From Methanocellales archaeon (GTDB taxonomy: Archaea > Halobacteriota > UBA148 > JAUWXC01), in NCBI GenBank assembly GCA_030018435.1, contig JASEEY010000010.1, positions 1-42,482 on the forward strand: a stretch of 42,482 bases of DNA, given 5' to 3'. Made by a program: the position numbers and the translations under genes. This document shows, one piece after another, positions 24,981 through 25,997 of the stretch. Below the pieces are notes generated by a model. The model was not told the origin of the DNA, did no database searches, and saw nothing but the letters and a program-made list of their open reading frames with translations. How positions within the stretch are numbered: the first letter of the stretch is position 1; the number at the start of each line of letters is the position of its first letter.

Positions 24981-24986
24981 ATAAGA

Positions 24987-25136
24987 TAGTCCCGGGCGGA
25001 TTCGAACCGCCGTCGCGGGCTCTCTCCACAACCTGCAAGAGGGTTGATCATTTGAGATTGCTTTTTGAACGATGATCAACCTTTTTTAAAAGGTTGTGCC
25101 AAAGGCCCGCAGGATTGACCACTACCCTACGGGACT
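24987..25136 (-). tRNA. tRNA-Gln (anticodon TTG) with 77-base intron
   Basis: The exons form AGTCCCG...CGGGACT with the anticodon stem CGGGC/GCCCG and loop CTTTGG+A (TTG at 34-36), T-arm GGCGG TTCGAAT CCGCC, discriminator A. The intron (25022-25098) is at the canonical 37/38 site. It begins CACAACC and ends GGTTGTGGAG, whose ends pair ACAACC/GGTTGT next to the splice site, although the 3' bulge is less regular than a strict bulge-helix-bulge. Exon 1 is 25136-25099, exon 2 is 25021-24987. The upstream repeat at 25157 supplies a TATA-like CTTAAAC. Confidence 0.88.
25022..25098 (-). other. Intron of tRNA-Gln, related to the tRNA-Ile intron
   Basis: Its first 25 bases contain ACAACCTTTT then AAAAAAGGTTGATCA, and its last part TGATCAACC...TGCAGGTTGT, GAG. 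Inner inverted repeats GGTTGATCAT/ATGATCAACC (10 bp) and AACCTTTT/AAAAGGTT give alternative hairpins. The same end sequences are found in the large tRNA-Ile intron at 25767-25918. Confidence 0.8.
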
Positions 25137-25156
25137 ATACGAAGTTAAGCTGCGCG

Positions 25157-25186
25157 GTACACTTTAGTTTAAGCGAATGCATACGC
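25157..25186. repeat. 30-bp repeat, copy 1 (possible tRNA-Gln promoter)
   Basis: A perfect 30-base match to 25218-25247, read on the plus strand from GTACACTTTAGTTTAAGC to GCATACGC. On the minus strand it contains CTTAAACTAAAG, which lies about 30-38 bases before tRNA-Gln and could be its TATA box. A diverged copy is at 33631. Confidence 0.85.
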
Positions 25187-25198
25187 CTTCGGGCTTAA

Positions 25199-25217
25199 GC
25201 ATTCACTTTGTGAATGC
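25199..25217. repeat. Hairpin between the two 30-bp repeats
   Basis: GCATTCA and TGAATGC form a 7-bp perfect inverted repeat with loop CTTTG. It could be a processing or terminator hairpin for the upstream tRNA-Val transcript; no T-run follows on the minus strand. Confidence 0.5.
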
Positions 25218-25247
25218 GTACACTTTAGTTTAAGCGAATGCATACGC
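25218..25247. repeat. 30-bp repeat, copy 2
   Basis: Identical to copy 1 over 30 bases, with a 31-base interval between them. It ends one base from the 3' end of tRNA-Val (25249). The minus-strand TATA-like element points toward tRNA-Gln, about 90 bases away. Confidence 0.85.
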
Positions 25248-25248
25248 A

Positions 25249-25322
25249 TGGGCCCGACCGGATTCGAACCGGGGATCTCCGCCGTGTAAAGGCGGTGTCA
25301 TAGCCAACTAGACCACAGGCCC
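25249..25322 (-). tRNA. tRNA-Val (anticodon TAC)
   Basis: 74 bases. The acceptor GGGCCTG pairs with CGGGCCC, D-arm GTCTAGTTGGCTATGAC, anticodon stem CCGCC/GGCGG with loop TTTACAC (TAC at 34-36), T-arm CCCGG TTCGAAT CCGGT, discriminator A. No intron. It resembles tRNA-Val(CAC) at 6617 closely. Confidence 0.95.
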
Positions 25323-25372
25323 TTAATACGCCAAGGGATTTCGTATATACTCAATCATAAACCTTTTGGGTT

Positions 25373-25459
25373 TCATACTGGCAGGACAAAGTAGATTGTG
25401 ATAAGCGATAGGAGTGCCATTATTAGCAAAACTACTACTATTCTCTCTTCTTTCTGCAT
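25373..25459 (-). CDS. Possible 28-residue single-helix membrane peptide
   Basis: A short frame beginning MQKEER followed by an unbroken hydrophobic stretch (VVVLLIMALLSLITIYFVL) and a stop. A charged EER head with a MALLSL helix resembles the membrane anchor of some small archaeal proteins, so it may be a real small protein or the anchor of a truncated one. Its ATG lies two bases after the 3' end of tRNA-Ala, the same geometry as sppA after tRNA-Val. No RBS. Tentative. Confidence 0.4.
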   Translation of the reverse strand: MQKEERIVVVLLIMALLSLITIYFVLPV

Positions 25460-25489
25460 CATGGACCGGTCGGGATTTGAACCCGAGGC

Positions 25490-25511
25490 TTGTAGGCGCA
25501 GTCAAAACGCT
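25490..25511 (-). other. Second intron of tRNA-Ala, in the variable loop
   Basis: On the minus strand: helix GTAG, bulge AGA, inner stem GCG, loop, CGC, helix CTAC, bulge AAG. Cutting each three-base bulge after its second base removes 22 bases and leaves the normal variable loop AGGCC. Confidence 0.8.
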
Positions 25512-25519
25512 CTCTACCA

Positions 25520-25553
25520 ATAAGGATGTCATGCTCTTTCAGACCATGACATT
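25520..25553 (-). other. First intron of tRNA-Ala, canonical 37/38 site
   Basis: 34 bases with an 8-bp perfect hairpin. The four-base helix (TTGG against CCTT) has only two G-C pairs, so the bulge-helix-bulge is relaxed. The expected loop TTGGCAT is restored on removal. Confidence 0.75.
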
Positions 25554-25735
25554 TGCCAAGGTAGCGATCTACCCCTGATCTACCGGCCCAAGCGCGTATA
25601 GCGCGTATGTGAAATGGCGAGATTTTACAATAAATCTATCGGTGAGAACTTTATACGAAGAAAACTTTAATTACATGTTGCCATAACTGGTTGAAGTAAC
25701 TCCATCATCTGGGCCCGTAGCTTAGCCTGGTTGGA

Positions 25736-25752
25736 TCTCGTAAGAGCAATAT
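25736..25752 (+). other. 17-base D-arm intron of tRNA-Ile
   Basis: The motif reads helix GTTG, bulge GAT, stem CTC with loop GTAA and GAG, helix CAAT, bulge ATG. Cutting each bulge after the second base joins GGA to GCA and restores the D-stem GCTT/GAGC. Confidence 0.78.
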
Positions 25753-25766
25753 GCACACGGCTGATA

Positions 25767-25918
25767 AACAACCTTTTAAAAAAAGGTTGATCAAAATGTC
25801 CTACATTCGCTCGCATACGCTCGCTCAGTAGGACTAGATTAAAAATCGAAGATATGATCTATCGAGCGTAGCGAGATGGGTCGTTCTGATGATCAACCTG
25901 TCTGCAGGTTGTTGAGAA
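25767..25918 (+). other. 152-base intron of tRNA-Ile, related to the tRNA-Gln intron
   Basis: The splice region is CTGA, bulge TAA, ACAACC paired with GGTTGT, TGAG, bulge AAA: a good bulge-helix-bulge. Ends match the Gln intron (ACAACCTTTT, AAAAAAAGGTTGATCA; TGATCAACC, TGCAGGTTGT). The middle 90 or so bases are unique and carry GTCCTAC/GTAGGAC and TCGCTCG-type inverted repeats. No open frame. Confidence 0.8.
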
Positions 25919-25997
25919 ACCGTGAGGTCGGGCGTTCAAATCGCCCCGGGCCCATTCTCTAGATGAAAATAAATAAAAAAAAGAAGAGAGAAGGTAA

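Follow-up and report, generated by a model that had tools for sequence, protein, structure and literature searches.

Two tRNA introns that share their ends

The introns of the tRNA-Gln and tRNA-Ile genes found in the analysed window (the whole 42,482-nucleotide stretch, contig JASEEY010000010.1 of assembly GCA_030018435.1, from a genome of 1.02 Mb in 29 contigs designated here G000) are two members of a large repeat family. We put the probability at about 0.7 that these introns are copies belonging to a single family of short palindromic repeats, which lives as bulge-helix-bulge (BHB) tRNA introns and spreads at the DNA level. The two genes and the parts of their introns are as follows.

24985-25137, minus strand: tRNA-Gln(TTG) gene, interrupted by an intron at the canonical 37/38 site and mislabelled 'tRNA-Stop' by ARAGORN
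25022-25098, minus strand: tRNA-Gln intron of 77 nt, belonging to the family; the hairpins of both ends are there and the middle is shortened
25073-25097, minus strand: 5' end hairpin of the Gln intron, ACAACCTTTTAAAAAAGGTTGATCA
25028-25050, minus strand: 3' end hairpin of the Gln intron, TGATCAACCCTCTTGCAGGTTGT, which is the 5' end in inverted copy
25711-25954, plus strand: tRNA-Ile(GAT) gene, interrupted by a 37/38 intron and by an insertion in the D arm, with boundaries set by comparison with the intron-free homologs of genomes G003 and G001
25736-25752, plus strand: 17-base insertion in the D arm of tRNA-Ile (TCTCGTAAGAGCAATAT)
25767-25918, plus strand: tRNA-Ile intron of 152 nt, a full-length family member, lacking in G001, G003 and G005
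25768-25793, plus strand: 5' end hairpin of the Ile intron, ACAACCTTTTAAAAAAAGGTTGATCA
25794-25889, plus strand: inner module of the Ile intron, made up of the hairpins GTCCTAC..GTAGGAC and GATCTATCGAGCG..
25890-25912, plus strand: 3' end hairpin of the Ile intron, TGATCAACCTGTCTGCAGGTTGT

The positions and lengths of both introns given in the initial annotation were confirmed. Both lie one base 3' of the anticodon (37/38) and their removal gives an intact mature tRNA. Both had been read as starting with ACAACC; this hexamer is indeed shared, but the true first base lies one position earlier and is C in Gln and A in Ile. A single A is the sole difference between the 5' end of the Gln intron (ACAACCTTTT-AAAAAAGGTTGATCA) and that of the Ile intron, and the 3' ends, (A)TGATCAACC..TGCAGGTTGT.GAGA, differ only at the hairpin loop and at one base. 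The six bases following the 3' end hairpin of the Gln intron, GGAGAG, contain the BHB partner of the anticodon loop.

The best local alignment of the two introns scored 44, whereas the highest score among 2000 dinucleotide-preserving shuffles was 27. The 5' ends alone scored 44 (shuffle maximum 31) and the 3' ends alone 34 (shuffle maximum 24), and the sharing of ends proposed earlier is thus beyond chance in all three comparisons. The ACAACC/GGTTGT pairing suggested for these ends was seen in the RNA folds of both introns, with a helix of GGTTGATCA and TGATCAACC nested within it. Unrelated introns of the same genomes use other helix letters, so the need of the ends to pair does not by itself account for their identity.

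The hairpin family in this genome and order

A third copy was found in the intron of tRNA-Arg(GCG) with the stricter pattern ACAACC..GGTTGATCA. The family hairpin, CAAMCTTTT-loop-AAAAGKTTG followed by ATCAAAA, is present in about 12 canonical-site (37/38) tRNA introns of G000, those of Gln, Ile, Ile2(CAT), Arg(GCG), Arg(TCT), Gly(CCC), Gly(TCC), Lys(CTT), Asn, His, initiator Met and elongator Met. Matching introns in further tRNAs, named beforehand as a sign of spread, are therefore plentiful in this genome, and the set of carriers varies between sister species. The hairpin of Gly(TCC) is in reversed orientation, and weaker relatives occur in the Lys(TTT) intron and as insertions in Leu D-loops.

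The wider pattern CAAMCTTTT-N(0-14)-AAAGKTTGATCA was searched in 11 genomes of the order, with the reversed pattern as a control. It gave 27 matches in 7 of the 11 genomes, 10 of them in G000; the reversed pattern gave none in the same 11 genomes. When the copies were read locus by locus, 24 of the 27 were inside tRNA introns, with host tRNAs differing among species. Two of the remaining three represent one orthologous site in the spacer between tRNA-Ala and 23S rRNA, and the third lies directly 3' of a tRNA. The spacer holds a full-length family element in G000:C29:796 (L087) and in G003:C1:89425, and the site is empty in G004 (CCATCAATGCACC). Short patterns revealed no complementary partner in the 3' flank that would place this copy at the BHB location of the 23S processing stem.

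For comparison of whole introns, the tRNA set was built with the Rfam tRNA model and individual genome stretches, plus a custom parser. The parser mishandled tRNAs with D-loop introns, and such rows were dropped or read by hand ('G000 Leu AAG' proved to be Ile and 'G004 Val AAC' a Leu D-loop copy). In all, 335 pairs of introns from different tRNAs passed E<=1e-3, including a few parser artefacts, and the best clean pair, Gln and His of G004, was 98.3 % identical over an internal tract of 120 nt. Inner modules of the Ile type were also found in the introns of other tRNAs in G000 and G004.

Two further observations concern repeats near tRNA genes. In G000, two GGGAAGGTTGATCA copies (C26:22592 and C26:45523) stand behind a long palindromic array with GTTGCAATCCCRTAGGGATTTCAAC, and nested palindromic repeats adjoin tRNA genes there. 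Genome G009 has a second shared tRNA intron family with unrelated-looking ends (GAAGGGG...CGAAACCCC), which occurs in Lys, Gln, Arg and Thr with identity of up to 89 % between different tRNAs (L167, L173, L181, L183, L184, L170).

Empty, short and rebuilt sites in sister genomes

Two genomes of the same genus were available for comparison: G003 (CP061209.1, Methanosarcinales archaeon Met33H, one contig of 987,146 bases) and G001 (JAUWQV01, CSMAG_2511). The tRNA cluster adjoins a gene for threonyl-tRNA synthetase, whose product is 87-88 % identical to those of G001 and G003 and about 65 % identical to that of Methanothrix, and the genome therefore belongs to an uncultured, small-genome branch among the Halobacteriota.

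Comparison with intron-free homologs, advised in the initial annotation, was possible for tRNA-Ile, since both same-genus genomes lack the 37/38 intron. The site is empty in G001 and G003 (exon CTGATA-ACCGTG) as well as in G005, and the empty homologs have the exact joined exon. In G004 the site holds an intron of 197 nt, and in L120 (CSMAG_2674) an intron with the same ends as in G000 and a different body. Both G000 and G001 have an intron in tRNA-Arg(TCT), which is precisely missing from G003; the flanks are near-identical between the close sisters G001 (filled) and G003 (empty). The absence of the Ile and Arg(TCT) introns could reflect loss instead of an ancestral empty state.

Other sites differ in the length of the insert. 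The Gln intron is reduced to the hairpin alone (27 nt) in G001 and G003. In the near relative L120 it equals the Gln intron of G000 with 51 additional bases (AAATGTGCTACC...AAAACCA), which resemble the Ile module ATGTCCTACATTCGCTCG. Since L120 carries these Ile-module-like bases, the G000 Gln intron is most simply read as a deletion derivative. The initial annotation had spoken of about 75 internal bases gained or lost between the Gln and Ile introns; the difference is real, and on the sequences compared it would most simply be, for the most part, a loss in the Gln copy of G000. Likewise, the elongator Met intron has 140 nt in G002 and is a hairpin-only intron of 28 nt with the same ends in G000. 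Palindromic ends are also direct repeats of each other, so that a deletion between them, as suggested by the Met case, would leave a single hairpin.

The Gln intron is present across the whole order. This site was thus interrupted long ago, and part of the pattern is replacement of the body in an old intron, not fresh insertion. In G004, the 3' end of tRNA-Thr together with its downstream element is duplicated behind a Leu tRNA gene (C1, about 701700-702200, L249, and 685045, L254). This duplication and the nearly identical Gln/His tract are signs of DNA recombination among tRNA genes in that genome.

The idea that an intron had been copied from one tRNA into another fared well in one respect: common origin and movement are well supported. 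Gln need not have been copied directly to Ile, the two being members of a many-copy family.

Each copy fits the anticodon loop of its host

A BHB intron pairs with the anticodon loop through the bases ahead of its 3' splice site. The Gln and Ile introns fold into the BHB layout, with a 4-bp central helix and bulges on either side in which 4 of 4 (Gln) and 3 of 4 (Ile) positions are paired. For 93 introns of seven genomes, the 3' segment paired on average 3.74 of 4 bases with positions 32-35 of its own host. When the segments were permuted within genomes (5000 permutations), the mean pairing was 2.81 and the maximum 3.04. As pairing with the own host exceeds that of all permutations, the 3' segment is matched to the host copy by copy; what the family has in common is the CAAMC/GKTTG helix and the body.

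The splicing endonuclease of G000 has two tandem PF02778-PF01974 halves, and its nearest solved relative is 1r0v, of the alpha-prime-2 type. Splicing in the cell and the exact splice sites are predictions.

Dispersed copies outside the order

The hairpin was found in 53 of 394 genomes in a scan of the phylum, in which the reversed pattern again gave no match in any of the 394 genomes. This result overturned the view that the motif is restricted to the order. The copy number reaches 59 in some genomes of 3-4 Mb from one genus (f5, g57), and there are several copies in family f8. Thirty-one non-order copies were read, and nearly all of them are extragenic or in coding regions; three lie directly behind tRNA genes and one is in the tRNA-Gly(CCC) intron of G067. 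The hairpin followed by ATCAAAA stands in such extragenic or coding positions in the Methanosarcina-like genome G289 and in G067, G097 and G179. G289 carries tRNA-Pyl, in keeping with Methanosarcina. Non-order copies often have ATCAAAA(A)C on their 3' side, as in the introns, and stand in arrays together with variants of the unit that bear the tag AGCG or ATCG.

Extragenic DNA is, from these copies, the wider habitat of the repeat, and the tRNA habit belongs to the small-genome order, with at least one separate case. Part of the wide occurrence could be convergence, the hairpin core being AT-rich and simple; chance is disfavoured because ATCAAAA adjoins the hairpin and the reversed pattern is absent. 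The earlier proposal of a mobile intron holds for the movement among tRNA genes, but the moving thing is probably not the intron as such. Since other families of the phylum carry the hairpin in dispersed and mostly extragenic copies, the data agree better with a repeat that lives as an intron than with an intron that jumps on its own.

The hairpin was also present, by exact pattern, in four viral contigs, in one of which (L280:2634-2657, IMGVR_UViG_3300048041_000145) it stands four bases ahead of a predicted tRNA-Ser.

How the repeat may live and spread as an intron

A full-length unit has two inverted ends, CAAMCTTTT-loop-AAAAGKTTGATCA ... TGATCAACC-loop-GGTTG, each end being a hairpin, with exchangeable hairpin modules between them. 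The outermost CAAMC and GKTTG would pair to form the intron-side BHB helix, and the last approximately six bases of the intron would pair with the anticodon loop of the host, so that the alpha-prime-2 endonuclease could cut both sites and leave a functional tRNA. Palindromic ends are expected to supply the intron-side helix for a whole, a single-hairpin or a reversed unit, and the repeat may survive in tRNA genes in so many rearranged forms because these ends form the helix in any of them. Copies would spread and be rearranged in DNA by insertion, ectopic recombination or gene conversion among tRNA genes, with no reverse transcription. We infer that the movement took place at the DNA level and may have run from dispersed repeat to intron, and we favour spread by DNA recombination or by a transposase yet to be found.

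No mobilising enzyme was identified among the families searched (PF00078 and Y1_Tnp, in five genomes). The PF00078 reverse transcriptase, looked for as the mark of a retroelement or group II intron, was found in none of G000, G001, G003, G004 and G009. Y1_Tnp was absent from G000 and from the single-contig genomes G003 and G004; there is one in G001 and there are three matches in G009, and a simple pattern showed no family hairpin adjoining the Y1 genes. A homing endonuclease or a protein-coding intron was ruled out, as the introns are too short.

An element of the REP or MITE kind, mobilised in trans by a transposase of the Y1 class (IS200/IS605 or RAYT type) or of another class, could account for a hairpin with a conserved ATCA tag at its foot, for the dispersed copies and for the arrays of variant units with 4-base tags in Methanosarcina-like genomes (e.g. 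CAAAC-hairpin-ATCA-CAAGCC-hairpin-AGCG), and Y1_Tnp does occur in G001 and G009. This explanation seems doubtful, as Y1_Tnp, the transposase type searched for, is absent from three of the five genomes and, by a simple pattern, stands beside no matching hairpin in the others, which led us to reject a Y1 transposase as the present driver. Nor was a target-site duplication visible by eye when filled and empty versions of the Ile, Arg(TCT) and 23S spacer sites were compared.

It could also be that old introns at fixed sites merely swapped their bodies by ectopic gene conversion and that new sites were never invaded. The same ends around different bodies in tRNA-Ile of G000 and L120, the internal blocks of 98 % identity and the tRNA-Thr tail behind the Leu gene of G004 are all what such exchange would produce. 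Conversion alone is nevertheless unlikely, because presence of the Ile and Arg(TCT) introns differs between sister species, although losses could explain some of these cases, and because copies are also found in Leu D-loops, behind tRNA-Val and in the tRNA-Ala/23S spacer that is empty in G004.

Transposition at the RNA level, in which an excised (circular) intron reverse-splices into a BHB-like site of another pre-tRNA and returns to the genome as a DNA copy by recombination, is what the mechanism in Thermoproteales would be if it is RNA-borne. It agrees with insertions and absences that are exact at the splice site with no additional bases, and with the location of nearly all copies of the order at BHB positions of tRNA genes. 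It is nevertheless quite improbable in view of five genomes (two of them single-contig) devoid of PF00078, matching tracts that often end within introns, as does the Gln/His block of G004, extragenic copies in other families, and last bases that fit each new host, which is unexpected of a copied donor intron.

That these are old, vertically inherited introns whose ends converged under selection of similar helices by the same endonuclease and anticodon-loop pairing is hardly credible, for even if the splice-helix bases are equally constrained in all hosts and the Gln intron occurs throughout the order, identity reaches past the helix to GGTTGATCAAAA and to inner modules, whose matches already contradict it, unrelated introns of the same genomes have other ends, cross-tRNA pairs are up to 98 % identical over 120 nt and the shared ends outscore all shuffles.

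Comparison with known systems

The origin of archaeal tRNA introns is an old question, and the Thermoproteales are the main documented case of their movement. Similar introns in different tRNAs are described there, with the mechanism given as unknown (Fujishima 2010, as represented in PMC4090602 and PMC8450103). As far as those accounts describe it, the present case is alike in near-identical introns in different tRNAs of one genome, in BHB splicing at canonical and non-canonical sites and, by description, in intron-free or differently interrupted orthologs in close relatives (here Ile, Arg(TCT), Gln and Met). It differs from the same accounts in the lineage (Halobacteriota with an alpha-prime-2 endonuclease), the palindromic inverted ends, the hairpin-only derivatives and the extragenic relatives.

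For the tRNA-Thr of Caldiarchaeum, a mobile element was proposed to have brought in an intron, with subsequent homologous recombination (PMC3293823). That case concerns one gene and plasmid-like integration at an att site, in contrast to a multicopy small repeat in many tRNA genes without an integrase. REPs and REPINs, which are served by RAYT transposases, are palindromes of 20-40 bases with a short tag at the foot, dispersed in the genome and forming arrays and inverted pairs (PMC2817692, PMC3116915, PMC3733652). In G289, G067, G097 and G179 the family may be likened to them, with its palindrome, foot tag and many dispersed copies. It is unlike them in the tag itself, in the lack of Y1 transposase from three of the five genomes and in the confinement of the order's copies to stable-RNA genes, nearly all of them inside tRNA genes. 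The terminal inverted repeats of full-length units (Ile, Gln, and Met of G002) recall MITEs, unlike which no target-site duplication is visible by eye.

Eukaryotic introners are DNA repeat families that yield many introns by supplying splice signals. A DNA repeat family as the source of introns is common to both systems; the introns here are archaeal BHB introns cut by a protein endonuclease, and the host is tRNA, not mRNA. It is possible, at somewhat below even odds, that we are dealing with an archaeal counterpart of introners, in which a dispersed REP-like repeat of Halobacteriota generates BHB tRNA introns and the spliced intron has become its main habitat in a small-genome lineage. New introns would then arise because, whichever way round the unit lies, its palindromic ends provide the splice helix.

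Neither the intron family of this lineage nor a link between tRNA introns and REP-like repeats was reported in the literature searched, which included few subscription papers. Intron transposition itself is known from the Thermoproteales; the lineage and the link to a repeat look new. The alpha-prime-2 lineage lies outside the groups known for intron-rich tRNAs. An extragenic palindromic repeat offers a concrete source of introns, and splicing away of the insert gives a testable reason why tRNA genes tolerate such landings. As the sister genomes include sites with and without an intron, inserts of a lone hairpin or of full length, and bodies exchanged at one splice site, gain, loss and rebuilding can be traced stepwise.

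Other insertions in the tRNA cluster

The D-arm insertion of tRNA-Ile is shared by G001 and G003; G005 has a variant of it and G004 lacks it. Judged by sequence comparison, it is probably a second, non-canonical intron that stands outside the hairpin family. Non-canonical introns alongside an alpha-prime-2 endonuclease would be unusual.

The tRNA-Ala(GGC) gene (25461-25590, minus strand), called Pro(TGG) by ARAGORN, has a 37/38 intron of 34 nt and a 22-base insertion in the variable loop, the latter present in G001 and G003 and absent in G004 and L120. Between tRNA-Gln and tRNA-Val, at 25160-25250, tacactttagtttaagcgaatgcatacgc occurs twice and flanks a hairpin.
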